Assembly (NCBI RefSeq): GCF_025506355.1 | Contig: NZ_JANZYP010000061.1 | Location: forward strand, 1 to 64,000 | Origin: Sphaerisporangium corydalis | Lineage (GTDB): Bacteria > Actinomycetota > Actinomycetes > Streptosporangiales > Streptosporangiaceae | Direction of reading: 5' to 3' | Length of the DNA stretch: 64,000 nucleotides | Made by a program: the position numbers and the translations under genes | Notes under the pieces: generated by a model | The model's database searches: none | Told to the model about the DNA's origin: nothing | Seen by the model: the letters and a program-made list of their open reading frames with translations, nothing else | In this document: in pieces, positions 6,064 to 37,055 of the stretch | How positions within the stretch are numbered: the stretch's first letter is position 1 | Layout of the letters: the number at the start of each line of letters is the position of its first letter

Positions 6064-6795
6064 TCAGGACGGCGCGGCACCGCCGTGTTTGCTCTGGTGC
6101 TCGCTGACCAGCAGGCGCGCCAGATCGGCGACCTTGACCTGGTGGTGCTGCGACAGCCGGCGCAGCTCGTCGAACGCCGCCTCGGCCGAGCAGCCGCTCG
6201 CGTGCATGATGATGCCCTTGGCCTGGTCGATCACCGCGCGGCCCGCGAAGGCCTCCTGGAGCTGCGCGGCGTCGGTGAGCACGTCGTCGTAGTCGGAGAT
6301 GTTGGCGAGCGCGACGGTGAGCTGCTCGGTCAGCAGGGTGGCCAGGGCGTCGGCCGAGCCGCCGGAGAACGCGCCCGGCCGCACGGCGTACAGGCCGAGG
6401 ACGAGCGTGGCGCCCTCGATGGCGATCGGCAGCACCAGCGTGGAGCGCACCCCGTGCTTGACGGCGGTGGCGGCGTAGCGGGGCCAGCGGGCGTCGAGCA
6501 GCACGTCGGTGACCAGCACGTTCCTGCCGGTGGCCAGCGCCTCGGACGAGGGCCCCTCGCCGAGGGCCTGCTCGCGGTCGACCAGGGCGATCAGGTCGCT
6601 GTGGGAGGCGGACAGCATCAGCCGCTCCTCGCCCCGCCGCAGCTCGACCGTGCCGCCCGCGCATCCGGGCACGCCGACCGCGACGGCGCCGGTGATGCCG
6701 CGCAGCACGCTCTCCATCGAGGTGCCCTCGTGGACGCGGCCGAGGGCCGCGAGGTCCCGCGCGAGCGCGGGGCTGAACATGCTCATCGTCTCCAT
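6064..6795 (-). CDS. GAF and ANTAR domain RNA-binding regulator
   Basis: A 243-residue protein with a GAF sensor domain (about 25-165) and a C-terminal ANTAR domain (about 178-232: AFAGRAVIDQAKGIIMHAS, then AAFDELRRLSQHHQVKVADL). ANTAR domains bind paired hexanucleotide hairpins in mRNA and act as antiterminators; GAF-ANTAR proteins are frequent in actinobacteria. It is convergent with the STAS gene and divergent from the SpoIIE-like gene. The start ATG is followed by MSMFSP, with a second ATG six bases later; either is possible. The ligand and RNA targets are not evident. Confidence 0.9.
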   Translation of the reverse strand: METMSMFSPALARDLAALGRVHEGTSMESVLRGITGAVAVGVPGCAGGTVELRRGEERLMLSASHSDLIALVDREQALGEGPSSEALATGRNVLVTDVLLDARWPRYAATAVKHGVRSTLVLPIAIEGATLVLGLYAVRPGAFSGGSADALATLLTEQLTVALANISDYDDVLTDAAQLQEAFAGRAVIDQAKGIIMHASGCSAEAAFDELRRLSQHHQVKVADLARLLVSEHQSKHGGAAPS

Positions 6796-6926
6796 ATGGA
6801 CCTTCCGCTGCCCTTGATTGCCAGGTTAATTCCAACTACGAGGTGCTCATCCTTGGGGAGCGCCTTCTTGACGTACGGTCTAGCAAGGGGAACTCACGTT
6901 CTCCTCGGCCATCCGAAGGACCTCAA

Positions 6927-8822: not shown

Positions 8823-8900
8823 AGCTGTGACGCACCCGATGAGGCTGTGGGGCACCCGATAAGGCTGTGGGGCACCCGGTGAAGCTGCGGCGCACCCGGT
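8801..8900 (+). repeat. five 20-bp tandem units spanning a stop codon
   Basis: Five consecutive units of exactly 20 bp (8801, 8821, 8841, 8861, 8881), each of the type gaggctgtggggcacccgat. The first unit codes for the last residues of the SpoIIE-like protein (ALRRTR) and the other four lie beyond its stop codon. Confidence 0.9.
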
Positions 8901-9021
8901 GAGACGGTCGTGACCTGCGGCTGTCCATGAGGCATGGTTGTGTTTCACAATGGCACCGAGGGCCGCCCGCCGTTCCCGGCGGGCTCCGCCGGAGACATCA
9001 CGCCGCCGAGGAAGAGACCAT

Positions 9022-9351
9022 ATGGACCTCGAGTCCGACGGTGCGAGCCTGAGCGTTCGCCGCATCGCCGACCCGCCCGGCCTTCGCGTCGGCGGGGAGG
9101 TCGACACGACGACCGCCGGCGAGTTCGGTGAGGCGCTCGCGGCCGTGGTGCGGTGCTGCGACGGCGACGTCCGCGTGGACCTGGCGGGCGTGACGTTCAT
9201 CGACCTCGCGGGGCTGCGGGTGCTGGCGGACACGGCGGCGGAGCTGGGGCCGGGCCGCGCCCTGGTCCTCGGCCCGATGGCCGGCCATGTCGAGCACCTC
9301 ATCCGCCTCGTGGGCTGGGACACCGCGCCAGGACTGCGGCTCGCCGGGTAG
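9022..9351 (+). CDS. STAS-domain protein lacking the phosphoserine
   Basis: A 109-residue single STAS domain (VRVDLAGVTFIDLAGLRVLA). The residue normally phosphorylated (Ser in FIDSSGL) is Leu here, so an RsbW-type kinase could not act on it in the usual way. Such variants could bind constitutively or serve as adaptors; this is inference. The ATG at 9022 follows GAGGAAGAG by about 6 nt. It lies downstream of the SpoIIE-like gene, which has its own active-site substitutions. Upstream, TTGTGTTTCACAA (8938-8950) is a small inverted repeat. The region after its stop codon consists of degraded copies of its own 3' end. Confidence 0.85.
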   Translation: MDLESDGASLSVRRIADPPGLRVGGEVDTTTAGEFGEALAAVVRCCDGDVRVDLAGVTFIDLAGLRVLADTAAELGPGRALVLGPMAGHVEHLIRLVGWDTAPGLRLAG

Positions 9352-9521
9352 GGCGGACGGTCGCCTGGGTCACGGCTTGGCAGGCTGATGCGAACGCTCG
9401 GCGGGGACCTGGATCGCGGCTCGGCGGGTGAGGTGGACGCTCGGCGGGGACCTGGATCGCGGCTCGGCGGGTGATGTGGACGGTCGCCGGAGGCCTGGAT
9501 CGCGGCTCGCGGGGTAGGGCG
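9319..9521 (+). repeat. degenerate tandem copies of the STAS gene 3' end
   Basis: 9319-9355 (37 bp, including the stop codon) is followed by a diverged 36-37-bp copy (9356-9391/2), a 44-bp unit (9392-9435) and two 43-bp units (9436-9478 and 9479-9521). The 44-bp unit and the first 43-bp unit are nearly identical; the last ends in GGGTAGGGCG like the gene end. Confidence 0.8.
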
Positions 9522-9789
9522 GATGGTGACCGGCCGTGGCCGTCACGCCGGATTTTTGACCATATGGGGAGGCATTCCACCACGACTTGTTCCCTGGGCC
9601 GCCCGAGATCGCCCAGGTCAGGGGCTGGTGAACGGCTCCGGTACAAGCTTGTTTAAGATTTCTTTGCCCCAAGGGGTTTCCCTGGTTCGTCAGGTCGGTA
9701 CACTCAGTTACAGATCCCGTGCCTAAGACGCAGGCACAACTCAGTACGTCTTTGGGCCCTTTCGTGGCCCGACTCCCCTGAGGTGTGCC
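9522..9789 (+). promoter_or_regulatory. AT-richer, structured 5' leader of the glycosyltransferase
   Basis: No gene is seen. The stretch around 9640-9790 is unusually AT-rich for this window and holds the palindrome CCCCAAGGGG (9667-9676), a hairpin GTGCCT-7nt-AGGCAC (9719-9737), a hairpin GGGCC-7nt-GGCCC (9754-9770), and the direct repeat ACTCAGT (9702 and 9740 regions). The gene's ribosome-binding site follows directly. It could be a promoter with a regulatory leader; no known riboswitch class is recognised. Confidence 0.4.
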
Positions 9790-10971
9790 ATGAACATCGC
9801 CATCGTCTCCGTGCACGAACTTCCCGCCGACCTTCCGGCCATCGCCCGTGAGTTGAGCGGTACCCACCGAGTAACGGTCTACACCCGTCGCAACGCCGCC
9901 GACCGCAAGCCCAAGGTCAAGGTGGCCACCGGCGTGACGATCGAGTACCTCACGGCGGGCCCGGCCGAGTCGCTGGCGGAGAACGAGCTCATGCCGCACA
10001 TCGCCGAGTTCAGTGAGCAGCTCAAGCAGCGGTGGGGCAAGGACCGCCCCGACGTCGTCCACGCGCACTCCTGGACCGGCGGCCTGGCCGCGATCGCCGG
10101 GGCCGCCGACCTCGACGACGTGCCGATCGTCCAGACCTTCCACAACCTCGGCTCCTCCCGCATCCGCCCCGGCGCCGACCAGGGCCGTGCGGCCAGGATC
10201 CGGCTGGAGCGCGCGATCGGCCGCAGGGCCGACGCGGTCATCGCCTCCTGCGACGACGAGGCCGACGAGCTGATCCGCATGGGCGTGCCGCGCAAGAAGA
10301 TCGCGGTGGTCCCGCACGGCGTCGACGTCGAGCGCTTCCGCCGCCAGGGCCCGTCCCTCCCCCGCACCGACCGCCCGCGCCTGGTCCACGTCGGCCACAT
10401 CACGCCCGGCGGCGGCGCGTACACCGCGATCCGCGCCCTGGACGGCATCCCCGGCGCCGAGCTGCTGATCGCCGGCGGCCCGGTCGCGGGCTCCCCGGAC
10501 ACCGAGGCCGACCTCGAGCGCCTGCGCATCGTGGCCAAGGAGGCCGGTGTCGAGGACCGCGTCACGCTGCTCGGCCACGTCCCGCACAACTCGATCGCCA
10601 AGCTGATGCGCAGCGCGGACATCGTGCTGTCGCTGCCGGTGGCCGTCCCCAACGGCAAGGTGGCCCTGGAGGCCATGGCCTGCGGCACCCCGGTGATCGC
10701 CTCCGCCGTCGGCGCCCACATCGACTCGGTGGTGGACGGGGTGACCGGCCTGCTGGTCCGGTCCGACAACGCCGCCGCGCTCGCCCTGCGCACCCGCCAG
10801 CTCCTCGGCGACCTGACCCGCAGGACCGCGCTCGGCTTCGCCGCCGCCGACCGTGCCAGCTCCCGCTACTCCATGGAGCGCATCAGCCGCGAGCTGGTCC
10901 GCGTGTACGACAACGTGACCGGCCGCCTGCAGCCGGTGGAGGCCGAGGAGTCCGAGGCCGAAGCCGCCTGA
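9790..10971 (+). CDS. GT4-family glycosyltransferase
   Basis: A 393-residue protein with a GT-B fold of the GT4 type. The N-terminal acceptor half contains DVVHAHSWTGG and QTFHNLGSSR, and the nucleotide-sugar half contains HVGHITPGGG, LLGHVPHNSIAKLMRSADI and the family EX7E-like segment in GKVALEAMACGTPVIAS. It transfers a sugar from an NDP donor; the acceptor is unknown. It is a single gene between a long leader and a strong hairpin (10991-11021). The ATG follows GAGGTG. The C-terminus is acidic (EAEESEAEAA). Confidence 0.88.
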   Translation: MNIAIVSVHELPADLPAIARELSGTHRVTVYTRRNAADRKPKVKVATGVTIEYLTAGPAESLAENELMPHIAEFSEQLKQRWGKDRPDVVHAHSWTGGLAAIAGAADLDDVPIVQTFHNLGSSRIRPGADQGRAARIRLERAIGRRADAVIASCDDEADELIRMGVPRKKIAVVPHGVDVERFRRQGPSLPRTDRPRLVHVGHITPGGGAYTAIRALDGIPGAELLIAGGPVAGSPDTEADLERLRIVAKEAGVEDRVTLLGHVPHNSIAKLMRSADIVLSLPVAVPNGKVALEAMACGTPVIASAVGAHIDSVVDGVTGLLVRSDNAAALALRTRQLLGDLTRRTALGFAAADRASSRYSMERISRELVRVYDNVTGRLQPVEAEESEAEAA

Positions 10972-25882: not shown

Positions 25883-26002
25883 CGGGCACTCCTCGGTTCG
25901 CTCACGGCGACCTTCCTCGTCGGCTCGCTCAACGGGACCTCCTCGATGACTCGTTCACACTGCGCCGCTCATATGACCCGTTCACACCGGGCTCCTCAGC
26001 GA
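25870..26002 (-). repeat. 27-bp tandem repeats between glycosidase and binding-protein genes
   Basis: Units at 25895, 25922, 25949 and 25976 are each 27 bp. The last (25976-26002) is the end of the GH4 gene including its stop. On the minus strand each keeps a TGA, and most keep a GAGGAG-like run. The adjoining 25870-25894 is similar and supplies the GAGGAG site and GTG start of the binding-protein gene. Confidence 0.8.
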
Positions 26003-27292
26003 TTCGGGAAGCAGGTCGCCGTGCGCCCGCACCATGTCGTCGCACAGCGCCCAGATCTGCTCGACCGTCAGCGTCGCGGAGGCGTTGGGGTCGGCCATCA
26101 CGGCGTGCCGGATGTGCTCGGGCCGCCCCTCGACGGCGGCGCGCACGGTCAGCTCGTTGACGGCGACGTACGCGCGGTTCAGCGCGGCGAGCTGGGGCGG
26201 CAGGTCGGGCACGGCCATCGGCGTCACGCCGAGCGCGTCGGCCACGCACGGCACCTCGACCACGCACCCGGGCGGGAGGTTGCCGATCAGGCCGCGGTTC
26301 ACGACGTTGCCGTGGATCACCCGCCGGGTGCCGGTGGCGACGCTGTGGATGATCTGCGGCGCGTACTCCATGGTGGCCTCGACGGGGATGGGACGCCCGG
26401 CGCGCAGCGCGTCGCGGGTCTCCTCGTACCGGCGCACGTTGTCCTCGCTGATGCCGATGTAGTCGCCCACCGGGATGCGCAGGCGCTCGATCTCCGCGTC
26501 GCTGTGCAGGTACCAGGGGACGTACTCCGAGGAGTGCTCGCTGCTCTCGGTCGGGAAGACGCCGAGCCGCCGGTACATGTCGACGCGCACCCGCCGCAGC
26601 AGGCCGGGGTCCCGCTCGATGGCCGCGTCCAGCAGGGGGTACAGGCTCTCGCCCGCCCGCTCGAACCGCAGCACCCACGCCTGGTGGTTGACCCCGGCGG
26701 CCAGGAACGACACCTCGTCCATCGGCACGCCGACCAGCTCCGACAGGTCGTGGATGGTCCAGTGCACCGAGTGGCACAGCCCGACGACGTTCTTGACCGG
26801 GGTGGCCGCGCTGAGGTACCAGACGTTCATGGCCATCGGGTTGGTGTAGTTGAGCAGCCAGGCGTCGGGGCACACCTCCGCGATGTCCCGGCCGATCGCC
26901 TCCAGCACCGGGAAGGTGCGCAGGGCACGGAAGATCCCGCCGACCCCGAGGGTGTCGCCGATCGTCTGGCGCAGGCCGTACCGGGCGGGGATCTCGAAGT
27001 CGGTGCGGGTGGCGCCGATCATCCCGACCTGGATGATGTTGATGACGAAGGCGGCGCCCTCCAGGGCGGGCCGCCGCTCCAGGTGCGCCGTGATCTTCAC
27101 CGGTCCGGCGCCCTGGCCGGTCCCGGCGATGTAGTGCGCGGCCGCCTCGGCCGTGCGCAGGCGCTCGGGGTCGATGTCGTGGAGCGCGATCTCCAGCCCG
27201 CCGGCCTCGCGAAGCTCGGGGAAGCCGAGCAGGTCGGCCAGCAGCCCCTGGGTGAACTCGACGCTCCCGGCGCCGAGAAATGTGATCTTCAC
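25982..27292 (-). CDS. GH4-family glycosidase (alpha-galactosidase/6-phosphoglycosidase type)
   Basis: A 436-residue NAD- and metal-dependent glycosidase. The N-terminal Rossmann motif is KITFLGAGSVEFTQGLL. The GH4 metal/substrate region contains LLNYTNPMAMN, GLCHSVHW (Cys, His) and GVNHQAWVL (His). Family members oxidise C3 of the glycoside transiently and then eliminate the aglycone; alpha-galactosidase MelA is the closest in pattern. It starts with GTG overlapping the kinase stop (GTGA). In this operon it would process an imported alpha-glycoside. Confidence 0.88.
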   Translation of the reverse strand: MKITFLGAGSVEFTQGLLADLLGFPELREAGGLEIALHDIDPERLRTAEAAAHYIAGTGQGAGPVKITAHLERRPALEGAAFVINIIQVGMIGATRTDFEIPARYGLRQTIGDTLGVGGIFRALRTFPVLEAIGRDIAEVCPDAWLLNYTNPMAMNVWYLSAATPVKNVVGLCHSVHWTIHDLSELVGVPMDEVSFLAAGVNHQAWVLRFERAGESLYPLLDAAIERDPGLLRRVRVDMYRRLGVFPTESSEHSSEYVPWYLHSDAEIERLRIPVGDYIGISEDNVRRYEETRDALRAGRPIPVEATMEYAPQIIHSVATGTRRVIHGNVVNRGLIGNLPPGCVVEVPCVADALGVTPMAVPDLPPQLAALNRAYVAVNELTVRAAVEGRPEHIRHAVMADPNASATLTVEQIWALCDDMVRAHGDLLPESLRSPV

Positions 27293-28230
27293 GGGGTTCG
27301 TACCTCGTTCCAGGTGGGCTGGGCGGCGGTTCCGCCCGGCGCACGGGTCGACAGGGATCCGCAGGCCACGGCGACCCCGAGGCTGCGCGCGAGGTCAAGG
27401 CCGCGCAGCCGGGCCGCGATGAACCCGGCGTTGAAGGAGTCGCCGGCGCCGACGGTGTCGGCGAACTCGGCGGCGGGCGCGGGGGGCGGGGATACCCGTA
27501 CGACAGTACCGTTCTCCCAGGTCAGAGCACCGGCGGCGCCGTCTTTGACCACGGGCAGCACGCCCCGCGCGGCCAGGGCGCGTACCGCGCGCTCGATGCC
27601 GGGCTCACCGGTGATCGCCATCGCCTCGGCGGCGTTCGGCAGCAGCACGCCGGCCTCCTTGAGCACCTCGTCCAGCCCGCGCCACTCCCCCGCCGGGTCG
27701 TCGTTGGTGTCCAGGGAGGTCGTGGCGCCCGCCTGGCGCGCCTCGCGGAACAGGGCGGGGAGGCCGGCGGCCAGGCCGGGCTGGAGGAAGTACGACGACA
27801 CGTGCACGTGCCGGGAGGCCTGGACGAGCGCGGCGGGGACGTCGCCGGCCGTGAGGTAGGGCAGGCAGCCCGGGGCGGTGAGGATGGCCCGCCCGCCGCC
27901 GCCGGTCGCGTCGCCGTCGTCCACCAGGACCACGGTCAGCGCCGTCGGGCGCTCATCGATGACGCAGTGGCGGGTGTCCACGCCGCGCTCGGCGAGCATC
28001 CCGAGTACCAGGCGCCCGGCCGCGTCGTCGCCGACCCGGCCGGCGAACGCCGTACGCAGCCCGAGGCGCGCGGCGCCGCACGCGGTGATCGCGCCGGACC
28101 CGCCGAGGACCAGCTCGCCCCGGTCGACCAGTTCCTCGCGCTGGCCGTACGCCGGCCGGCGCGGGGCTCCGGAGATCACCACGTCGGGGTTGGCGTCACC
28201 GACGACGAGCAGGTCGTAGTCAGGCGTCAT
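27289..28230 (-). CDS. PfkB-family carbohydrate kinase
   Basis: A 313-residue ribokinase-like kinase. The sugar-binding lid and GG motif are in ELVLGGSGAITACGAARLG, and the catalytic loop DTVGAGDSFNAGF holds the Asp base and anion hole. It phosphorylates a sugar or sugar acid; the substrate is not evident. It is the first gene of the five-gene operon running toward lower coordinates, with a 4-bp overlap to GH4. The ATG at 28230 was chosen from family N-termini (MTPDYDLLVVGDANPDV). Divergent from dhaK. Confidence 0.88.
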   Translation of the reverse strand: MTPDYDLLVVGDANPDVVISGAPRRPAYGQREELVDRGELVLGGSGAITACGAARLGLRTAFAGRVGDDAAGRLVLGMLAERGVDTRHCVIDERPTALTVVLVDDGDATGGGGRAILTAPGCLPYLTAGDVPAALVQASRHVHVSSYFLQPGLAAGLPALFREARQAGATTSLDTNDDPAGEWRGLDEVLKEAGVLLPNAAEAMAITGEPGIERAVRALAARGVLPVVKDGAAGALTWENGTVVRVSPPPAPAAEFADTVGAGDSFNAGFIAARLRGLDLARSLGVAVACGSLSTRAPGGTAAQPTWNEVRTP

Positions 28231-28300
28231 GAGGCGTGACCCGGCAAAAGGGAGGACGCATGGACGAGGTCTCCTTCCCTGGACCACCGCGAACGGGTTC

Positions 28301-28340
28301 AGACTTGCGCGTTTCTGCGCGAAGTTCAACCTTTTCGCGC
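28301..28340. promoter_or_regulatory. divergent promoter with GCGCGAA/TTCGCGC inverted repeat
   Basis: On the minus strand TTGAAC (28324-28329) and AAGTCT (28301-28306) sit 17 bp apart, fitting a promoter for the kinase operon. GCGCGAA (28317-28323) and TTCGCGC (28334-28340) form a perfect 7-bp inverted repeat that overlaps its -35, with a further TTGCGCG at 28305. The rest of 28231-28440 has no gene. Confidence 0.55.
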
Positions 28341-28440
28341 ATTAAGAGTCGATTACGCAGGACCTGGGGTCGGCGTCCGCTTGCGCGCGCCCGCGAAGGG
28401 GGAGAGATTGGGGACCATCACCTCCGACCGAGGAGCGGCC

Positions 28441-29433
28441 GTGAAGAAGCTCATCAACAGCGCCGACTCCGTCGTGACCGACGCGCTCGCCGGAATGGCG
28501 GAAGCCCACCCCAGCCTTCGGGTGGACGTGGACAACAAGATCATTTATCGGAGGTCCGCGCCGGTCGCGGGCAAGGTCGGGCTGGTGTCCGGCGGCGGTT
28601 CCGGCCACGAGCCGCTGCACGGCGGCTTCGTCGGCCACGGGATGCTCGACGCGGCCTGCCCGGGCGAGATCTTCACCTCCCCCGTCCCCGACCAGGTCAT
28701 CGAGGCCACCAAGGGCGTCGACGGCGGCGCCGGGGTGCTGCACATCGTGAAGAACTACACCGGCGACGTGCTGAACTTCGAGATGGCGGCCGAGCTGTGC
28801 GCCGAGGAGGGCATCGAGGTCGCCGTCGTGCTCGTCAACGACGACGTGGCCGTCAAGGACTCGCTGTACACGGCCGGCCGCAGGGGCACCGGCGCGACCG
28901 TCTTCGTGGAGAAGATCGCCGGGGCGCTCGCCGAGACCGGGGCACCGCTCGCGGAGGTCGTGCGCGTCGGCACCGAGGTCAACGCCCGCAGCAGGTCGTT
29001 CGGCGTGGCACTGTCCCCGGGCACCGTACCGGCGGCCGGGAAGCCGAACTTCGACCTCGCCGACGACGAGATCGAGCTGGGCATCGGCATCCACGGCGAA
29101 CCCGGGCGCACCCGCGCGCCCGCCGCGCCCGCCCGCGAGATCGCGCGCATCGCCATGGACGCCGTCCACGCCGACATGCCGCTCACCGGCGACGTCCTGG
29201 TGATGGTCAACGGCATGGGCGGCACCCCGCTCATCGAGCTGTACGTGGTCTTCGCCGAGGTCGCCGCCTACGTCCGCGACAAGGGCGCGACGCTCACGCG
29301 CAGCCTGGTGGGGAACTACGTCACCAGCCTCGACATGCAGGGGTTCTCGGTGACGGTCTGCGCCCTGACCGACGAACTCACCCGCCTGTGGGACGCCCCC
29401 GTGGAGACCCCCGGCCTACGCTGGGGCCGCTGA
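28441..29433 (+). CDS. dhaK: dihydroxyacetone kinase subunit DhaK
   Basis: A 330-residue PTS-type dihydroxyacetone kinase K subunit. The substrate loop GSGHEPLHGGFVGHGML contains the His that binds dihydroxyacetone covalently, and CPGEIFTSPVPDQ and LHIVKNYTGDVLNFEMA are family signatures. With DhaL and DhaM it phosphorylates dihydroxyacetone using phosphoenolpyruvate-derived phosphate. The GTG at 28441 follows AGGAG by 5 nt. It is divergent from the sugar operon. Confidence 0.96.
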   Translation: MKKLINSADSVVTDALAGMAEAHPSLRVDVDNKIIYRRSAPVAGKVGLVSGGGSGHEPLHGGFVGHGMLDAACPGEIFTSPVPDQVIEATKGVDGGAGVLHIVKNYTGDVLNFEMAAELCAEEGIEVAVVLVNDDVAVKDSLYTAGRRGTGATVFVEKIAGALAETGAPLAEVVRVGTEVNARSRSFGVALSPGTVPAAGKPNFDLADDEIELGIGIHGEPGRTRAPAAPAREIARIAMDAVHADMPLTGDVLVMVNGMGGTPLIELYVVFAEVAAYVRDKGATLTRSLVGNYVTSLDMQGFSVTVCALTDELTRLWDAPVETPGLRWGR

Positions 29434-29484
29434 CCCCGGCAGCCCCACCGGCCCGCACCGTGATCATCGAGGAGCCGTAGCCTC

Positions 29485-30114
29485 ATGGACGTCCAGTTCT
29501 TCACCGCGTGGATCGAGGAGATCGCGCGTGCCGTCGCCGACGGCCGCGATCACCTGACGCGGCTCGACGCCGCGATCGGGGACGCCGACCACGGCTCCAA
29601 CCTCGACCGGGGCTTCACCGCCGTCCTCGCGGCCCTGGCCGCCACGCCGCCGGAGACCCCGGGGGCCGTACTCACGCTCACCGGCACGACGCTGATCCGC
29701 AAGGTCGGCGGCGCCTCCGGCCCCCTGTACGGCACCGCGTTCCGCCGGATGGGCGCGGCCCTCGGCCAGGGCGACGCCGACGTCACCCTGGCGGGGCTGG
29801 CGGCGGCCCTGGACGAGGCCCTCGCCGGGGTGCGCAAGCTCGGCGGCGCCACCGAGGGCGACAAGACCATGGTCGACGCCCTCGGCCCCGCGACGCGCGC
29901 GCTCGCGGAGGCGGCGGACAAGGGGATGGACGCCGAGGAGGCGCTCGACGCCGCCCGCGACGCCGCCGAGGAGGGTGCCAGGGCGACGATCCCGCTCCAG
30001 GCACGCAAGGGGCGCGCCAGCTACCTCGGCGAACGCAGCGTCGGCCACGAGGACCCTGGCGCCGCGTCCACCGCCCTGATGTTCCGCGCCCTGCGCGCGG
30101 TGGCCGGCCGATGA
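29485..30114 (+). CDS. dhaL: dihydroxyacetone kinase subunit DhaL
   Basis: A 209-residue ADP-binding L subunit. It has the nucleotide/Mg motif RLDAAIGDADHGSNLDRGF, then IRKVGGASGPLYGTAF, GDKTMVDALGPA and the C-terminal GRASYLGERSVGHEDPGAAS. It relays phosphate from DhaM to dihydroxyacetone on DhaK. It begins 51 bp after dhaK. Confidence 0.96.
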   Translation: MDVQFFTAWIEEIARAVADGRDHLTRLDAAIGDADHGSNLDRGFTAVLAALAATPPETPGAVLTLTGTTLIRKVGGASGPLYGTAFRRMGAALGQGDADVTLAGLAAALDEALAGVRKLGGATEGDKTMVDALGPATRALAEAADKGMDAEEALDAARDAAEEGARATIPLQARKGRASYLGERSVGHEDPGAASTALMFRALRAVAGR

Positions 30115-30184
30115 CCCGGGCGACCCGCTCAGGCCCGCACGGCCCCCGCCGGGCCCCGTCACCGAGCACCGCGATGGTGCGCTG

Positions 30185-30577
30185 ATGACCGAGCCGGGGG
30201 CGCTCGTCGGCATCGTCCTGATCTCGCACAGCGACGCGCTGGCGAGGGAGGCGGTGGCACTCGCCGTCCAGATCGCCGGGGCGGACGTACGGGTGGCCGC
30301 CGCGGGCGGGACCGACGACGGGGGGCTCGGCACCAGCGTGGACAAGGTCTCCTCGGCCGTCGAGGCCGTGGACCAGGGGGCGGGGGTCGTCCTCATCCCC
30401 GACCTGGGCAGCTCGGTGCTCACCGCGCGCCTGCTCGAAGAGCCCGGCTCGGTGGTGATCGCCGACGTGCCGTTCGTCGAGGGCGCCATCGCGGCGGCCG
30501 TGGCGGCGGGCATGGGCGCCACCCTCCAGGGCGTCCTGGACGCCGCCGAAGACGCCAGGACCTACCGCAAACTCTGA
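30185..30577 (+). CDS. dhaM: PTS-dependent dihydroxyacetone kinase phosphotransferase DhaM
   Basis: A 130-residue protein with only the EIIA-Man-like domain of DhaM. The phospho-accepting His is in VGIVLISHSDALA. The HPr- and EI-like domains found in longer DhaM proteins are absent, so it must be phosphorylated by the general PTS proteins encoded elsewhere. It lies 70 bp after dhaL; the gap (30115-30184) could encode at most a 24-residue peptide and I do not call it. Confidence 0.92.
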   Translation: MTEPGALVGIVLISHSDALAREAVALAVQIAGADVRVAAAGGTDDGGLGTSVDKVSSAVEAVDQGAGVVLIPDLGSSVLTARLLEEPGSVVIADVPFVEGAIAAAVAAGMGATLQGVLDAAEDARTYRKL

Positions 30578-30602: not shown

Positions 30603-30710
30603 CCCGGACACCGGCCCGCCACCCAGCCCGGACGCTGGCCTGTACCCGGACATCGGCCTCTATCAGCCTGGACGCCGGTCTCTCGCTCAGCCGGGTGGGC
30701 GGTCCAGGAG
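30603..30710 (-). repeat. degenerate 19-24-bp repeats after the FAD/Fe-S gene
   Basis: Units 30603-30626, 30627-30645, 30646-30666 and 30667-30690 all carry a CCGGAC-x-CCGGC-like core, and the adjoining gene end (30691-30710) is a weaker match. They fill the space between convergent dhaM and the FAD/Fe-S dehydrogenase gene, just past the latter's stop. Confidence 0.65.
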
Positions 30711-33632
30711 TTCGGCCAGGTGCAGGGATGGTGTGCCCGCGAGCTGGGCGAGTTGCGTGCGGCAGGAGAAGCCGTCGGCGAGGACGATGGTGCCCTCGCG
30801 GGCCCGCCGTACCGCGGGCAGGAGCCGGGTCTCCGCGACCGCCACCGACACCTCGTAGTGTCCGCGCTCGACACCGAAGTTCCCGGCCAGGCCGCAGCAG
30901 CCGCCGACCGAGGTGACCGTGGCGCCCGCGCGGGCGAGCAGCTCCCGGTCGGTCTCCCAGCCCATCACAGCGTGGTGGTGGCAGTGCGGCTGCGCCAGCA
31001 CCTCCACGCCGGCCAGGCCGGGCGGCGTCCAGTCCGGCAGCCCGGTCAGGAACTCGGCGAGCGTGCGGACGGACCCGGCGACCCGCTTCGCCGCGCGGTC
31101 GTCGTCGCCGAGCAGTTCGACGGCGTCGGAGCGGAGCACGGCGGCGCAGGACGGCTCCAGCGCGACGATCGGTGTCCCCGCCTCGGCGTGCGCGGCCAGC
31201 GCGTCCACGGTCCGCCGGAGCCTGCGCCTGGCCGCGTCGAGCTGACCGGTGGAGATCCACGTCAGCCCGCAGCACAGGGCGGCGGGCGGGAAGGTCACCG
31301 AGAACCCGGCCCTGGTCAGCACCCGCACCGCGGCCCGCGCGACATCAGGCGAGAAGTACCCGGTGAACGTGTCCACCCAAAGCACGACATCCCGCGATCC
31401 TCCGGCGCCGACACCCGCACCGGGAACCGACCCCGGGCCCACCCCGGCACTCATCGCTGCCCCCGGGACCCCAGTCACGTCCTTTGCCGCGCCCAGGGTC
31501 GTGATGGTGTCCGGGGTCGTGGGGGTGGTGTGGAAGGGGTGGGGGGCGAAGGGTGGGAGGGGGCGGCGGGGGTCGATGCCGCCCAGGCGCTTGACCAGCG
31601 CGGCCACCAGTCCGATCCGCAGCGCCGCGTTGACGGCGCGGGGCGCCAGGGCGGCCAGCCGGGCCCAGCGCGGCAGCCAACCGAGCGAGTAGTGCGCCAC
31701 GGGACGCGGACGGCGGCGGTAGGTCTGGTGGAGCACCTCGGCCTTGTAGGTGGCCATGTCGACCCCGGTGGGACAGTCGGACCGGCACCCCTTGCAGGAC
31801 AGGCACAGGTCCAGCGCCTCGCGTACCTCCGGCGCGCGCAGTCCGCCGGGCAGCGACCCGTTCACCGCCTCCTGGAGCACCCGGGCCCGGCCCCGGGTCG
31901 AGTCCTTCTCGTCGCGCGTCGCCAGGTACGACGGGCACATGACGGTGTCGCTGCCGGGCACGTCGGACCGGCACCGCGCGACGCCGGTGCAGCGGTGCAC
32001 GGCGGCCGTGAGGTCGCCGCCGTCGTGCGGGTAGCGGAAGGCCGTACCCCTGGTGACCGGCGGCGGAGGCTGGAGCCGCAGGTCGGCGTCCACCGCGGCG
32101 GGTCGTACGATCACGCCGGGGTTGAGCACCCCGCCGGGGTCGAACACCGCCTTGGCGGCGGCGAAGGCCGCCAGCGCGGCGGGTGAGTACATCAGCGGCA
32201 GCAGCTCGCCGCGCGCCCGCCCGTCCCCGTGCTCCCCCGACATCGAGCCCCCGTGCGAGGCGACCAGGCGGGCGGCGTCCAGCAGGAAGCGCCGGAAGAC
32301 CTTCGCGCCGTCGTCGCGCCCGAAGGGGAAGTCGACGCGGACGTGCAGGCACCCGTCCCCGAAGTGCCCGTACGGAACGCCGGTCAGCCCGTGGGCGGCC
32401 AGGAGTGCCTCGAAGTCGCGCAGGTAGGCGCCGAGCCGCTCGGGCGGGACGGCCGCGTCCTCCCAGCCCGCGTGCGCGGGCGCGCCCGCGACCGTGCGCG
32501 CGACCAGCCCGGCGCCGTCCTCCCTGATCCGCCAGACGGCGGCGGCGTGGGCCGGGTCGGTGACCAGCAGACTCGCGACCGCACCCGAGTCCGCCACCAA
32601 CGCGCCCGCCGCCGCCACCAGTTCCGCCGCCGACACCGATCTCGCCGCCGGGCCGCTGCCGAGTTCGGCGAGGAGCCAGCCGCCGCCCGCCGGGAGGGGC
32701 GGCACGCGGGCCGTCCCGTGCCTGGCGCGCACCACGTCCACCATGCGCGCGTCGATGCCTTCGAGCGTGATCGGCCGGTGCGGCAGCAGAGCGGGGACGG
32801 CGTCGGCCGCCGCGGCCATGTCCGGGTAGCCGAGCACGACCAGCAGGGTGCGCGCGGGCGTCTCGACGAGGCGGACCCCCGCCTCCAGCAGCACGCCCCA
32901 CGTGCCCTCGGTCCCGACGGTGGCCCTGGCCACGTCGAAGCCGTGCTCGGGGAGCAGGTGCTCCAGCGAGTATCCCGAGATCTGGCGCCGGAACCGTCCC
33001 ATTTCGGTCCGGATCACCGCGAGGTTGTCCTGGACCACCTGCCGCAAAGCGACGAGCGTCGGCGACCCGCCTCCCGTCCCGGCGAAAAGATCCCGGCCGC
33101 CCCTGGTCACGAGGCGTTCGCCGGTCCCGGTCAGCATGTCGAGTGTGAGGACGTTGTCGGCGGTGCGGCCGTAGGCGAGGGCGCGGGATCCGCAGGCGTT
33201 GTTGCCGATCATCCCGCCGATGGTGCACCGGCTGTGCGTGGAGGGATCGGGGCCGAAGCGCAGCCCGTACGGCGCCGCCTGACGCTGGAGCGCGTCGAGC
33301 ACGACCCCGGGCTGGACGGAGGCGGTGCGGGCCTCCGGGTCCAGCGAGATGATCTGTCCCATGTGACGGGAGAAGTCCAGCACGAGGCCCGGCCCGACGG
33401 CGTTGCCCGCGATGGAGGTCCCCGCCCCCCGCGCGGTCAGGGCGACCCCCTCGGACCGGCAGAGCGCGAGTGCGGCGGCGACCTCCTCCCCGTCGCGGGG
33501 GAAGGCGACCGCCGCCGGCGGCACCCGGTAGAGCGAGGCGTCGGAGGAGTACTCGGCCCGGCGCCTCGGCGAGGCGTCGACGTCGCGTACCCCGGCCCGG
33601 CGCAGCGCGTCGGCGAGCTCGGACGGTCTCAG
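30687..33632 (-). CDS. FAD/Fe-S D-2-hydroxyacid dehydrogenase (YdiJ-like)
   Basis: A 981-residue fusion: an FAD-binding type 4 domain (about 35-215, with ARGAGTSIAGNAVGPG and IGGMIGNNACGSRALAYG), a FAD-oxidase C domain (about 240-530, HFGDGCLHVRVDF and SGEHGDGRARGELL), a ferredoxin-like cluster (CLSCKGCRSDCP) and CCG/heterodisulfide-reductase domains (AALCCGLTW, QPHCHHHAV, GGCCGLAGNFG). This plan matches bacterial D-lactate/D-2-hydroxyglutarate dehydrogenases. The only start at the conserved N-terminus is a CTG overlapping the previous stop (CTGA) with GGAGGGGG upstream. As last gene of the lactonase-transhydrogenase operon it probably reoxidises D-2-hydroxyglutarate to 2-oxoglutarate. Confidence 0.85.
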   Translation of the reverse strand: MRPSELADALRRAGVRDVDASPRRRAEYSSDASLYRVPPAAVAFPRDGEEVAAALALCRSEGVALTARGAGTSIAGNAVGPGLVLDFSRHMGQIISLDPEARTASVQPGVVLDALQRQAAPYGLRFGPDPSTHSRCTIGGMIGNNACGSRALAYGRTADNVLTLDMLTGTGERLVTRGGRDLFAGTGGGSPTLVALRQVVQDNLAVIRTEMGRFRRQISGYSLEHLLPEHGFDVARATVGTEGTWGVLLEAGVRLVETPARTLLVVLGYPDMAAAADAVPALLPHRPITLEGIDARMVDVVRARHGTARVPPLPAGGGWLLAELGSGPAARSVSAAELVAAAGALVADSGAVASLLVTDPAHAAAVWRIREDGAGLVARTVAGAPAHAGWEDAAVPPERLGAYLRDFEALLAAHGLTGVPYGHFGDGCLHVRVDFPFGRDDGAKVFRRFLLDAARLVASHGGSMSGEHGDGRARGELLPLMYSPAALAAFAAAKAVFDPGGVLNPGVIVRPAAVDADLRLQPPPPVTRGTAFRYPHDGGDLTAAVHRCTGVARCRSDVPGSDTVMCPSYLATRDEKDSTRGRARVLQEAVNGSLPGGLRAPEVREALDLCLSCKGCRSDCPTGVDMATYKAEVLHQTYRRRPRPVAHYSLGWLPRWARLAALAPRAVNAALRIGLVAALVKRLGGIDPRRPLPPFAPHPFHTTPTTPDTITTLGAAKDVTGVPGAAMSAGVGPGSVPGAGVGAGGSRDVVLWVDTFTGYFSPDVARAAVRVLTRAGFSVTFPPAALCCGLTWISTGQLDAARRRLRRTVDALAAHAEAGTPIVALEPSCAAVLRSDAVELLGDDDRAAKRVAGSVRTLAEFLTGLPDWTPPGLAGVEVLAQPHCHHHAVMGWETDRELLARAGATVTSVGGCCGLAGNFGVERGHYEVSVAVAETRLLPAVRRAREGTIVLADGFSCRTQLAQLAGTPSLHLAELLDRPPG

Positions 33633-34036
33633 GACACCCCCTCCCCACCCGCACGACCATGCCCGTGGCCGGGAGCCGAGGGCGGCGGGGAGGGGTCGCC
33701 CGCGCGCAAGGGCGCGTCCTCGTAGCGGCCCTCGTGGGCGAGGATCGGTCTGCGGTCGCCCGCCAGTTCGGGGTGGCGTTCCTCCAGGTCGCGCCGGGCC
33801 TCGGCCGTGCGTCGCAGCGCGGTGACGTACTCGCGGTCGGCCCCGTACGTCCCCCGCCAGGTCTGCGGCATCATGTCCGAGGGCGGCGGCGTGGCCGCCC
33901 GTCCCGACAGCGCGAACCTGCTGGGGATCTTGCCGGTCTCGGTGCCGCACCGGGGGCAGGCGGGCAGGGGCGCGGTGAAGGACTGGACGACCTCGAAACG
34001 ATGTCCCTCGCGGCAGCGCAGTTCGTATATCGCCAC
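33629..34036 (-). CDS. FmdB-type zinc-ribbon protein with long tail
   Basis: A 135-residue protein. Residues 1-45 resemble the FmdB/CxxC regulatory zinc ribbon (IYELRCREGHRFEV, then PACPRCG). The first knuckle, normally CxxC, is CREGH, so one Cys is lost and His may replace it. The remaining 90 residues are a charged, Pro-rich tail. It starts with GTG after GAGGTGAGAAC and overlaps the next gene by 4 bp. It is embedded between the transhydrogenase and the FAD/Fe-S enzyme, so a role with those enzymes is likely but unproved. Confidence 0.75.
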   Translation of the reverse strand: MAIYELRCREGHRFEVVQSFTAPLPACPRCGTETGKIPSRFALSGRAATPPPSDMMPQTWRGTYGADREYVTALRRTAEARRDLEERHPELAGDRRPILAHEGRYEDAPLRAGDPSPPPSAPGHGHGRAGGEGVS

Positions 34037-34045
34037 GTTCTCACC

Positions 34046-35332
34046 TCACCACAGCCGGATGGATCGGGTCAGGATGCCGGCGACGTCGTCCTCGGTGACC
34101 GGCCGGGGCGCGGTGGCGAGCAGGCGCCGCTGCTTCATCGCGCCCTCCACCAGCCCGGGGACGTCGGCCTCGCCGTACCCGACGCCGCCGATGCCGTTGG
34201 GGATGCCGATGTCCCGCATCAGCCTCAGCAGCACGCGGGGCAGGAACCCGGCGAGGTCGTCCGGCCGGCCGGCGGCGGGGTCGAGCAGTTCGGCGGCCCG
34301 CAGGTGCCGCTCCGGCCCGGCCTCGAAGGTGAAGCGGAACGCCTCGGGGGCGGTCAGCGCGACGGCCATGCCGTGCGGCACCATCGGCTCGTCCTTCGGG
34401 TACCCCTCGGGGTGGAAGTCCCTGACCCGCCCGGCGATGGGATAAGCGTTGGCGTGCGGGATGTGGACGCCGGCGTTGCCGAACCCGAGCCCGGCGAACG
34501 TCGCCGCCAGCGCCATCTCCCCCCTGGCCCCGGCGTCGTCCCCGTGCCGCACCGCCCTGCGGAACGACCGCGAGAGCAGGTGCAGGGCGCGCTCGGAGAA
34601 CATGTCGGCCACGGGGTTGGCGCCGCAGTACGGCACCCGTTCCTCGGGCCGTTTGCGCTCGTAGGAGGCGTACGGCCGGGCGGTGTAGCTCTCCAGGGCG
34701 TGGCACAGGATGTCCATCCCGGCGGCGGCGGTCACCCCGGCGGGCTGGGTGAGGGTGAGATCGGGGTCGACGACGGCGAGGACCGGGCGCAGCCGTACGT
34801 GGCTGATCCCGGTCTTGACCTTCTGGTCCAGCACGTCGAGGACGCAGATCGTGGTGCTCTCCGCGCCGGTGCCCGTGGTCGTGGGCACCGCGACCAGCGG
34901 CTTGAGCGGCGCGTTGGGGGCCAGGCCGCCGCCCACCGGGGCGTTGACGTAGTCCATCAGCTCGCCGGGGTTGGTGGTGAGCAGGTTGACCGCCTTGGCG
35001 GTGTCGATGCTCGACCCGCCGCCGACGGCGACGAAGGCGTCCCACGGGCCGGTGGCGCGGGCGTGCTCGATGGCCGCGAGCAGGCTGGCGTCGGTCGGCT
35101 CGACGTGCGCGCCGTCGTACACGGCCGCCTCCATGCCGTACCCGGCGAGGTGCGCGGCGATCCGCTCGGGGGCGCCGGTGGCCGCCACCCCGGGGTCGGT
35201 GATGACCAGGACGCGATGGACGCCGTACTGGGCGAGGTCGAAGCCGATCTCGGCCGAGGCGCCAGGGCCGAACTTCAGCGCCGGGGCCCCGTAGGTGAAG
35301 ACGGATTCGGGATTGCTCGGGGCGGTGTACAC
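34046..35332 (-). CDS. hydroxyacid-oxoacid transhydrogenase (iron-containing ADH family)
   Basis: A 428-residue type III alcohol dehydrogenase. NAD-binding GGGSSIDTAKAVN and metal ligands in GMDILCHALESYTARP and MVPHGMAVALTAP are present. The segments PHGMAVALTAPEAFRFTF, PERHLRAAELL and GYGEADVPGLVEGAM match the ADHFE1/HOT branch rather than ordinary ethanol or lactaldehyde enzymes. HOT oxidises 4-hydroxybutyrate to succinate semialdehyde while reducing 2-oxoglutarate to D-2-hydroxyglutarate, with tightly bound cofactor. GTG start with GAGGCGGGCG upstream. It lies 13 bp after the lactonase gene. Confidence 0.82.
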   Translation of the reverse strand: MYTAPSNPESVFTYGAPALKFGPGASAEIGFDLAQYGVHRVLVITDPGVAATGAPERIAAHLAGYGMEAAVYDGAHVEPTDASLLAAIEHARATGPWDAFVAVGGGSSIDTAKAVNLLTTNPGELMDYVNAPVGGGLAPNAPLKPLVAVPTTTGTGAESTTICVLDVLDQKVKTGISHVRLRPVLAVVDPDLTLTQPAGVTAAAGMDILCHALESYTARPYASYERKRPEERVPYCGANPVADMFSERALHLLSRSFRRAVRHGDDAGARGEMALAATFAGLGFGNAGVHIPHANAYPIAGRVRDFHPEGYPKDEPMVPHGMAVALTAPEAFRFTFEAGPERHLRAAELLDPAAGRPDDLAGFLPRVLLRLMRDIGIPNGIGGVGYGEADVPGLVEGAMKQRRLLATAPRPVTEDDVAGILTRSIRLW

Positions 35333-35345
35333 GGTCGCCCGCCTC

Positions 35346-36146
35346 TCACTCGTAGAAACCGTCGGGGGCGGTGCGCATGGACCTCAGCTGGGCCGCGTCG
35401 TGCCCGAAGACCACGTTCGCGCCGGACCGTTCCGCGATCGCGCGGATCTTCTCGACGGAGCCGTACCAGGCGCTCAGGTCGTTCACGATCGAGGCGGGGG
35501 TGGCGGGCGGGCCGTAGGAGTCGCCCAGGTAGACGGCGTCGGAGGTGAAGATCATGGTGCCGGACTCGGGCAGGTCGACGCGCATGGCCATCGTGCCGGG
35601 GGTGTGGCCGGGCGCCTCGATGAGGGTGACCCCCGGGAGGATCTCGGTGTCGCCGGAGACGGTCTCGAAGTCGAGGCCCTCGTAGTCGGCCTTGAGATGC
35701 GCCCCGGCGAACTCCCCCTCGAACCCGAAGGCGAACTCCTTCTCCTTGTCGTTGCACACCAGCCGGGCGCCGGTGCCGGCGAACTGCCGAACGTTGCCGG
35801 CGTGGTCGAAGTGCAGGTGGGAGAGCACCACGTAGTCGAGGTTCTCCGGGCTCACGCCGAGCCGACCGAGCTGGTTGTCGAGGTACTGCTCCTCGGTCAC
35901 CTGGTCGTAGGGGAAGAACTCCTGCAGGCCGGTCGGGATCCAGCGGGTCTCCCAGTCGCGCGGGCAGCTCGTGTCCCACAGCAGGGTGCCCTCGCCGGTC
36001 TCCACCAGGACGGCGTGCGTCGTGCACGGGTACCACTCGACGGGCCTGTCCCGCTCGGACCTGGGCCTGATGGTGCGTCCCGGCTTCAGCAGCAGCCAGG
36101 TCAGGTCGCAGCTCATCGCCCCGCAGTCGAGGACGTGCAACTTCAT
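35346..36146 (-). CDS. metallo-beta-lactamase-fold lactonase
   Basis: A 266-residue cytoplasmic enzyme of the AHL-lactonase/AttM type. The dinuclear metal motif is SHLHFDHAGN, followed by EAPGHTPGTM, FTSDAVYLGD and VFGHDAAQ. Such enzymes open gamma-butyrolactone or acyl-homoserine lactone rings. The ATG at 36146 has GGAGGA at good spacing, whereas the in-frame ATG at 36152 abuts that site. It is the first gene of the operon and is divergent from a GntR regulator. Neighbouring hydroxybutyrate-type genes favour a gamma-lactone substrate over signal quenching. Confidence 0.85.
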   Translation of the reverse strand: MKLHVLDCGAMSCDLTWLLLKPGRTIRPRSERDRPVEWYPCTTHAVLVETGEGTLLWDTSCPRDWETRWIPTGLQEFFPYDQVTEEQYLDNQLGRLGVSPENLDYVVLSHLHFDHAGNVRQFAGTGARLVCNDKEKEFAFGFEGEFAGAHLKADYEGLDFETVSGDTEILPGVTLIEAPGHTPGTMAMRVDLPESGTMIFTSDAVYLGDSYGPPATPASIVNDLSAWYGSVEKIRAIAERSGANVVFGHDAAQLRSMRTAPDGFYE

Positions 36147-36188
36147 GGCCATTCCTCCCTCTCACCCCCGGCCGACGGCAGATTTCAG

Positions 36189-36217
36189 AATCTGGCATGT
36201 AGCATGCTGCATGTCAA
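36189..36217 (-). promoter_or_regulatory. lactonase operon promoter filled by a GntR-type operator
   Basis: On the minus strand TTGACA (36212-36217) and CAGATT (36189-36194) are exactly 17 bp apart. A 24-bp near-palindrome (36193-36216, centre AGCATGCT, 20 of 24 positions symmetric) overlaps both elements and the whole spacer. It is the best operator candidate for the divergent GntR protein. The rest of 36147-36350 has no gene. Confidence 0.75.
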
Positions 36218-36350
36218 CGATCGGCGAGCAGGCGTCCCCCCGGCGATAGGGTCCTCTCAGTCAAGGTCGATTCCGAAAACCCGCCCCCCACCGGGCCGCC
36301 GGGTCCACAGGAATCCAGGTCTCGGGAATCCAAGCGAGGGGAGACCCACG

Positions 36351-37055
36351 ATGCGAGCGGTCGGCGGCGCGTCCAGCCTGACGGAACAGGTCATCGAGGC
36401 CGTCCGCGAGGCCATCCACTCGGGCGAGCTCCGCCCCGGAGAGCTCTACTCGGTGTACCAGCTCTCCGCCCAGCTCAACGTGTCCCGCACCCCGGTACGG
36501 GAGGCCATGCTGCGGCTGGCCGAGGCCGGAATGGTGCGGTTCGAGCGCAGCCGGGGCTTCCGTGTGCTGCGGAGCGACCCCAAGGAGATCGCCGAGGTGT
36601 TCCAGCTCCGGCTCCTGCTGGAGGTGCCCGCCGCCCGCGTGGCCGCCCGCCGGGCCGGTCCCGCGCTGGTCGAGGCGATGCGCGCCGAGCTCGAGGCCAT
36701 GCGCGGGGCCGCCAAGGAGCACGACGAGCGCGCCTTCATGCGCCACGACCGCGCCTTCCACGGCCTGCTCCTCGCCGCGGGCGCCAACCGCAAGCTCGTC
36801 GGCATCGTCGGCAACCTGCGCGACGCCACCACCACCCTGGGCGCCTCCACCGTCGACCGCTCCCGCTCCCTGGCCGACATCGCCGCCGAGCACGAGCCCA
36901 TCCTCACCGCCGTGGAGTCCGGCGACCCGGCCGCCGCCGCCGAGGCCATGCGCACCCACATCGCCCACACCGGCGAACTCCTCCTCACCCAGTCCGCCAC
37001 CGAGAACGGCACCACCCCCACCCCCGAGGACCTGAGCCTCATCCACGGCCTCTGA
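36351..37055 (+). CDS. GntR-family (FCD) transcriptional regulator
   Basis: A 234-residue regulator: an N-terminal winged HTH (LTEQVIEAVREAIHSGELRP, then YQLSAQLNVSRTPVREAMLR) and a C-terminal FCD ligand domain with metal-type residues (FMRHDRAFHGLLL, IAAEHEPILTAVESGD). FCD regulators usually bind small carboxylic acids and repress adjacent catabolic genes. It is divergent from the lactonase operon; a lactone-derived hydroxyacid would be a logical inducer. The ATG at 36351 follows GAGGGGAG by 7 nt. Confidence 0.9.
   Translation: MRAVGGASSLTEQVIEAVREAIHSGELRPGELYSVYQLSAQLNVSRTPVREAMLRLAEAGMVRFERSRGFRVLRSDPKEIAEVFQLRLLLEVPAARVAARRAGPALVEAMRAELEAMRGAAKEHDERAFMRHDRAFHGLLLAAGANRKLVGIVGNLRDATTTLGASTVDRSRSLADIAAEHEPILTAVESGDPAAAAEAMRTHIAHTGELLLTQSATENGTTPTPEDLSLIHGL

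Follow-up and report, generated by a model that had tools for sequence, protein, structure and literature searches.

The window analysed here is a stretch of 64,000 nucleotides from Sphaerisporangium corydalis (assembly GCF_025506355.1, contig NZ_JANZYP010000061.1, positions 1 to 64,000), part of a genome of 9.48 Mb in 162 contigs, and the locus of interest in it is a four-gene minus-strand operon divergent from a regulator gene. The operon encodes a metallo-beta-lactamase-fold lactonase (35346–36152, 268 aa), an iron-containing alcohol dehydrogenase (Fe-ADH) of the hydroxyacid-oxoacid transhydrogenase (HOT) or ADHFE1 type (34046–35332, 428 aa), an FmdB-type zinc-ribbon protein with a C-terminal extension (33629–34036, 135 aa) and a YdiJ-like FAD/4Fe-4S dehydrogenase (30687–33632, 981 aa with a CTG start). 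A GntR-family FCD regulator (36351–37055, 234 aa) is encoded on the plus strand, and a putative operator, the palindrome TGGCATGTAGCATGCTGCATG (36193–36213, no strand assigned), lies between the regulator and lactonase genes. All five genes are at the positions given in the first-pass annotation of this DNA, and the gaps that it reported within the operon (13 bp, 9 bp and a 4-bp overlap) agree with the coordinates and the bases. The length of 981 residues that it gave for the FAD/Fe-S protein is a possible reading which needs a CTG start at 33632, not ATG, GTG or TTG, because the 4-bp overlap with the FmdB gene reads CTGA. As the open reading frame (ORF) from a listed start codon begins far upstream at 33950 and encodes 1087 aa, the exact start is uncertain. 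For the lactonase, the second ATG (36146), which is 7 nt past a GGAGG and gives a protein of 266 aa, appears the more likely start.

The Fe-ADH matches Pfam PF00465 and PF25137. The HOT subfamily (cd08190) is marked by two insertions, of 19 and 13 residues in human ADHFE1 (PMC5125639), and when compared with three solved Fe-ADHs the window protein has approximately 17 extra residues near 220–236 and 13 near 302–314, at the places described for HOT. The respective loops measure 24 and 29 residues versus 7–22 and 16 in nine non-HOT Fe-ADH controls, and the second is the better discriminator because in four of these controls the first loop also reaches 21–22 residues. The residues D207, H211, H293 and H320, which from established knowledge of Fe-ADHs we take to be the metal ligands, and the nicotinamide-binding motif (G104–S107, I109–T111 and K113) are invariant across 28 aligned sequences. 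With both insertions and both conserved motifs present, the protein appears to belong to the HOT subfamily, and a 4-hydroxybutyrate:2-oxoglutarate transhydrogenase activity is proposed for it.

The lactonase includes an HxHxDH metal motif at residues 112–117, matches PF00753, and among solved structures is closest to the GcL lactonase (E 7e-44). It had been described as AttM-type and, though it is indeed a metallo-beta-lactamase-fold lactonase, that label is loose, as the best NCBIfam score is to AhlS (157.6 bits, cut-off 475), AttM is only third (105.4, cut-off 390), AiiA reaches 103.2 (cut-off 375), and the cut-off of every named family is missed. The FmdB-type protein scores 37.6 bits to TIGR02605, over the cut-off of 31.3, its extension beyond the zinc ribbon is common to its homologues, and an accessory role is proposed. 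In the YdiJ-like protein the Pfam domains follow the order FAD_binding_4, FAD-oxidase_C, Fer4_8 and CCG, that is, an FAD domain and then 4Fe-4S and CCG parts, as in YdiJ. E. coli YdiJ has been proven to be a D-2-hydroxyglutarate dehydrogenase of strict specificity (PMC9504171), and its active-site Arg, His, His, Glu and His are all present in the window protein, as is the Arg that E. coli YdiJ has at the place of Asn443 of human D2HGDH, a residue which helps to bind the far carboxylate (PMC7801405); no counterparts could be assigned to human Thr390 and Lys401. The active-site residues are also present in all 39 further homologues aligned (37 distinct, three rows being one Nocardioides locus), and comparison of the pocket did not separate the HOT-linked from the unlinked among these 39. 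Because homologues from genomes lacking HOT share the residues, the pattern is compatible with D-2-hydroxyglutarate as substrate but does not single it out.

Linkage between the HOT and YdiJ-like genes was examined in a sample of 246 genomes from the class Actinomycetes, 27 of which match HOT with an E value of 1e-60 or lower. The best match has at least 63 % identity in 24 of these (close HOT) and 48–52 % in three, and the surroundings of HOT were examined in all 27 and around the HOT paralogue of the source genome. A YdiJ-like gene was found no more than 1 kb from HOT in 15 of the 24 close-HOT genomes and in none of the three distant ones. The chance expectation that a particular gene falls within 3.5 kb is about 0.2 % per genome of 4 Mb; as the genomes are related, no formal p-value is attached. 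Four arrangements were seen, with the two genes adjoining, separated by the FmdB gene, separated by the regulator gene (locus L039), or divergent (L046). In a further close-HOT genome (G020) a contig end cuts the FmdB gene and the YdiJ-like match runs from base 175 of a different contig, which would fit an operon broken in two during assembly. Of the 27 HOT genomes, 25 have a YdiJ-like gene (E 1e-120), versus 102 of the remaining 219 (Fisher p 2.4e-6, with no correction for kinship). Around the YdiJ-like genes of HOT-less genomes no lactonase, HOT, FmdB or regulator match was found, and an aldehyde dehydrogenase gene adjoins the YdiJ-like gene in two (L155 and L159). The same four of the 246 genomes gave matches to the lactonase (E 1e-40) and to the FmdB protein (E 1e-12), each time adjoining HOT, and the FmdB protein was found only together with the lactonase. 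A 1495-codon ORF suggesting a HOT-YdiJ fusion in L045 was rejected as a frame artefact since the gene coordinates lie in different frames, and RNA-polymerase, topoisomerase and acyltransferase genes (by Pfam) and Nudix-like and methyltransferase-like genes (by eye) near HOT in one set of loci (family f26) were put down to shared chromosomal synteny.

The regulator matches PF00392 and PF07729. The palindrome core, GGCATGTARCATG, that separates it from the lactonase gene in the window is also found, exactly, upstream of HOT in L035 and ahead of the lactonase gene in L054 and L055; L036 has it with one mismatch. Seven chosen genomes (approximately 53 Mb), six with a regulator homologue by HOT and one (G141) with none there, were scanned in full, and all four exact matches to the core are at HOT operons. 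One-mismatch sites (16, including the L036 site) are at background level, the total of 20 matches comparing with 24 for a reversed-pattern control in which exact matches were not separated. A one-mismatch site near the best SSADH-like (succinic semialdehyde dehydrogenase-like) gene of the source genome (C24:74659) was dismissed as a chance occurrence, as it is inside a called ORF.

Relatives of the operon were also sought on plasmids, where 180 records were retrieved at E 1e-30, ordinary Fe-ADHs included, and 11 of the best 40 were examined. Plasmid pYYL1.1 of Rhodococcus ruber YYL, a reported tetrahydrofuran (THF) degrader (PMC7464125), carries soluble di-iron monooxygenase genes, an aldehyde dehydrogenase gene (not SSADH by score), a GntR gene, HOT (62 %) and a YdiJ-like gene. 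The window regulator shares 49 % identity over 158 residues with the YYL GntR protein, and two exact and two further one-mismatch copies of the operator core lie around the GntR gene. Since the proposed THF pathways lead via gamma-butyrolactone or 4-hydroxybutyraldehyde to 4-hydroxybutyrate and then succinate (PMC7464125, PMC7758286), the shared core and regulator provide the strongest hint as to the substrate, 4-hydroxybutyrate. On the plasmid of Mycobacterium dioxanotrophicus PH-06, a dioxane metaboliser (PMC5743803), the order is SSADH (other strand; 819.5 bits, over the NF006915 cut-off of 730), an FAD oxidoreductase, a major facilitator superfamily (MFS) transporter, HOT (74.5 %) and a YdiJ-like gene, the last two overlapping by 4 bp. 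Its YdiJ-like protein scores 442.2 bits to the YdiJ model, short of the cut-off like the window protein. The Rhodococcus pseudokoreensis plasmid has SSADH (other strand; 817.5 bits versus the same cut-off), an MFS transporter and HOT, the SSADH-linked HOT homologues on these two plasmids being 73–75 % identical to the window protein. On the five haloarchaeal plasmids examined, a lactonase gene directly precedes a HOT-like gene in three and none is there in two; Halobacterium hubeiense has lactonase, HOT-like and SSADH-like genes in a row, the SSADH-like protein scoring 603.7 bits, below the cut-off of 730. Two further plasmids were from Deinococcus, one with a thioesterase gene after HOT, and the eleventh was that of the Agrobacterium comparator discussed below.

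A scan for named HOT relatives covered the best 80 of at least 592 confirmed stretches. Context was obtained with the full set of probes for 29 (L061–L089); the other 51 are mostly Fe-ADHs of 26–36 % identity, and for 50 of them YdiJ-like, lactonase, FmdB and aldehyde dehydrogenase matches only were recorded. A lactonase match lies beside HOT in seven of the 29 (two Streptomyces, an Actinomycetospora, a Rubrobacter metagenome-assembled genome and three haloarchaea), though in Streptomyces niphimycinicus (L061, ~6764–7140) it is only a 71-residue fragment before a full HOT-FmdB pair. A YdiJ-like gene (55–57 %) is beside HOT in five of the 29, one of which is the Nocardioides locus already counted as L038, and a sixth has a YdiJ-like gene of 28 % identity beside HOT in divergent orientation. 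In S. antioxidans an MHS-type symporter gene (416.2 bits, cut-off 443.45) and an ORF resembling a short-chain dehydrogenase/reductase (SDR, by eye) precede the lactonase gene, and an ORF on the other strand resembles an FMN hydroxy-acid dehydrogenase (by eye). Among the other 51, a weak partial YdiJ-like match (26 %) was seen at L124, and in a Pelagibacteraceae stretch (L122, ~8001–10000) a weak lactonase match (26 %) directly follows an Fe-ADH gene that has no close kinship to HOT, perhaps another pair of the type known from the Agrobacterium Blc operon.

We consider it fairly likely that this is a lactone-catabolic operon, a variant of the Agrobacterium Blc route that includes a HOT/YdiJ-like 2-oxoglutarate cycle. 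The lactonase would open a small lactone, most likely gamma-butyrolactone, probably yielding 4-hydroxybutyrate. HOT, with its bound nicotinamide cofactor, would then pass a hydride from the hydroxy-acid to 2-oxoglutarate to give succinate semialdehyde and D-2-hydroxyglutarate, and the YdiJ-like enzyme would convert D-2-hydroxyglutarate back to 2-oxoglutarate and send the electrons onward, probably towards quinone, so that 2-oxoglutarate would serve as a catalytic carrier. Transfer to the respiratory chain is suggested solely by the Fe-S/CCG part of the YdiJ-like protein. The FCD regulator would bind the palindrome at 36193–36213 and respond to the substrate or a product. The first-pass annotation noted no SSADH in the window, and none of the operon genes encodes one; an aldehyde dehydrogenase completing the oxidation to succinate must, on this scheme, lie elsewhere in the genome, unlinked to the operon. 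The cycle is favoured because the HOT/YdiJ-like linkage recurs in several gene orders and because the lactonase and FmdB genes are always at HOT. It had been put forward in the first-pass annotation, and the division of labour among the genes is supported by the linkage, the plasmid-borne SSADH genes, the pairing of lactonase with HOT (in haloarchaea, with a HOT-like enzyme) and the shared operator core, while we infer the substrates, activities and electron delivery.

Several observations weigh against this reading. The YdiJ-like protein scores 413.4 bits (E 1.8e-123) to the YdiJ model NF049975, far short of the cut-off of 1350 (E. coli YdiJ itself scores 1727.9). After the window's own protein, the seven homologues that score highest across the class sample (63–67 % identity) are from genomes with no HOT match at E 1e-60. 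Given this and the low model score, the YdiJ-like protein looks like a recruited general enzyme. The HOT and YdiJ-like genes are unlinked in eight of the 24 close-HOT genomes, and no YdiJ-like match was found within approximately 8 kb at the two Streptomyces loci and the Actinomycetospora locus that have lactonase (one a fragment), HOT and FmdB, or in the 25-kb stretch of the R. pseudokoreensis plasmid. Of the two HOT insertions the haloarchaeal enzymes have only the first, for which reason they are called HOT-like here though the records say HOT. At six loci with a regulator homologue, no copy of the operator core with at most one mismatch was found (L037, 61 %; L039, L042, L045, L063 and L065, 46–49 %). 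The whole source genome has 26 and 25 matches to two SSADH models (NF006915 and TIGR01780), none of them over the cut-offs, the best being at C24:71117–72460 (572.3 bits, cut-off 646.35). Finally, HOT also lies beside thioesterase genes at some loci, and hence other hydroxy-acids are possible as its substrates.

In the alternative that fares best, though we regard it as unlikely, the same HOT/YdiJ-like shuttle serves a lactone other than gamma-butyrolactone, such as delta-valerolactone, a gamma-lactone with substituents or a lactone that an SDR forms from a lactol. That the lactonase misses every named-family cut-off would suit this, as would the SDR-like ORF and MHS-type symporter at the S. 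antioxidans locus and the two distant HOT loci (L058 and L059) that are near a Baeyer-Villiger-type monooxygenase (NF045818, 202 bits, cut-off 1100) and a thioesterase, one also being near an HSL-type esterase. Both the over-cut-off SSADH near the HOT homologues of 73–75 % identity and the operator core held in common with the locus of the THF degrader point instead to 4-hydroxybutyrate. Less probable still is ordinary Blc-like catabolism, in which the Fe-ADH would oxidise 4-hydroxybutyrate with NAD and the YdiJ-like enzyme would do no more than clear stray D-2-hydroxyglutarate or oxidise another hydroxy-acid, e.g. D-lactate. The recurrence of the HOT/YdiJ-like linkage in different orders and the presence of both HOT insertions argue against it, even though YdiJ-like genes are common without HOT (the 102 of 219 genomes above), the nicotinamide-binding motif is intact, and L034 and L035 have HOT with no YdiJ-like neighbour. 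It is very improbable that the operon handles 2-hydroxyglutarate, the lactonase opening its gamma-lactone, the YdiJ-like enzyme oxidising the product and HOT having a side activity. On established chemistry the steps could meet at D-2-hydroxyglutarate, and a GntR-family regulator is described as controlling a D-2-hydroxyglutarate dehydrogenase in Achromobacter (PMC8651671), but the lactonase adjoins HOT in four of four genomes and does so also with no YdiJ-like gene nearby (L068 and L071), and SSADH neighbours have no place in such a route. Least probable is quorum quenching, with acyl-homoserine lactones broken down by the lactonase and the product recovered through the other genes, for though the lactonase's best matches, AhlS and GcL, are acyl-homoserine lactonases, it scores below the cut-offs for such enzymes and its adjacency to HOT in all four sampled genomes fits catabolism.

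Some further features were recorded. A second HOT-type gene in the source genome (50 % identical; G000:C90:79102–81848, L060) is directly followed by an aldehyde dehydrogenase gene, and this pair, possibly a second hydroxy-acid route, recurs in L057. Elsewhere in that genome (G000:C95:64655–66604; L001, L201) a GabD-like aldehyde dehydrogenase gene (TIGR01780 546.7 bits, below the cut-off) precedes that of another Fe-ADH, which has a long first loop and lacks the second HOT insertion. The distant HOT loci L058 and L059 (family f4), where the thioesterase is of the 4HBT type and a FadD5-type ligase gene is also present, may represent a route from ketone to lactone to hydroxy-acid, L058 being the one with the esterase. 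In the window, at 25982–30577, minus-strand genes for a GH4-like glycosidase and a PfkB-like kinase adjoin divergent DhaK-, DhaL- and DhaM-like genes, all of them assigned by eye from the ORFs.

More broadly, we find the case evenly balanced for HOT plus the YdiJ-like dehydrogenase being a portable bacterial redox module that oxidises hydroxy-acids with no net use of free NAD, 2-oxoglutarate/D-2-hydroxyglutarate acting as a soluble hydride carrier into respiration. It would be fed by various upstream sets (lactonase and FmdB; di-iron monooxygenase and aldehyde dehydrogenase; transporter and SSADH), and the form with the lactonase would be a lactone operon of a new type that has its own FmdB accessory protein. 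A 2016 survey described HOT proteins as having no known activity outside animals (PMC5125639). The operon and its relatives give bacterial HOT a concrete, testable role tied to D-2-hydroxyglutarate recycling, the related gene sets in solvent degraders suggest a purpose for these little-understood enzymes, and an enzyme pair is suggested for the 4-hydroxybutyrate step of THF and lactone breakdown, in which D-2-hydroxyglutarate would be an ordinary intermediate carrying a high flux rather than a by-product. In agreement with the first-pass annotation, which knew of no description of this arrangement, no bacterial HOT-lactonase or HOT-YdiJ operon was found among the titles and abstract openings listed from the literature searched, which included few subscription journals. 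In a survey of D-2-hydroxyglutarate dehydrogenase neighbourhoods, the commonest neighbours named in the text consulted are GntR, ETF, SerA, CdaR, LldP and GlcF, and not HOT (PMC8651671). Each step has a precedent, and it is the combination, as a bacterial operon and as a shared redox module, that appears to be unreported in the literature searched.

Among the nearest known systems is BlcABC (AttKLM), the gamma-butyrolactone operon of Agrobacterium, which is controlled by the IclR-type regulator BlcR. In both, a metallo-beta-lactamase-fold lactonase adjoins an Fe-ADH and the expected product is succinate semialdehyde, but the window operon has a HOT-subfamily Fe-ADH, encodes a YdiJ-like dehydrogenase and an FmdB protein in addition, contains no SSADH gene and is accompanied by a GntR/FCD regulator. 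Agrobacterium H15 was rejected as a Blc comparator, its Fe-ADH having neither HOT insertion and lying beside a thioesterase and gabD. The second product of mammalian HOT is D-2-hydroxyglutarate. The mammalian enzyme (ADHFE1) converts 4-hydroxybutyrate and 2-oxoglutarate to succinate semialdehyde (PMC5125639), and D2HGDH reoxidises the D-2-hydroxyglutarate (PMC7801405). The same two-enzyme logic is proposed for the window operon, though the bacterial genes are in one operon with a lactonase and the dehydrogenase belongs with the YdiJ-like FAD/Fe-S enzymes and not with those of the mitochondrial D2HGDH type. With YdiJ, established as a D-2-hydroxyglutarate dehydrogenase in E. coli and Pantoea (PMC9504171), the window protein shares the FAD domain, the Fe-S/GlpC-like part and the active-site residues, and it differs in its sub-cut-off score and its linkage to HOT. 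The YYL and PH-06 plasmids have the same HOT and YdiJ-like pair, YYL also having a homologous regulator and the operator core, but no lactonase match is within 3.5 kb of HOT in either, and the neighbours are a monooxygenase and an aldehyde dehydrogenase in YYL and SSADH and an MFS transporter in PH-06.

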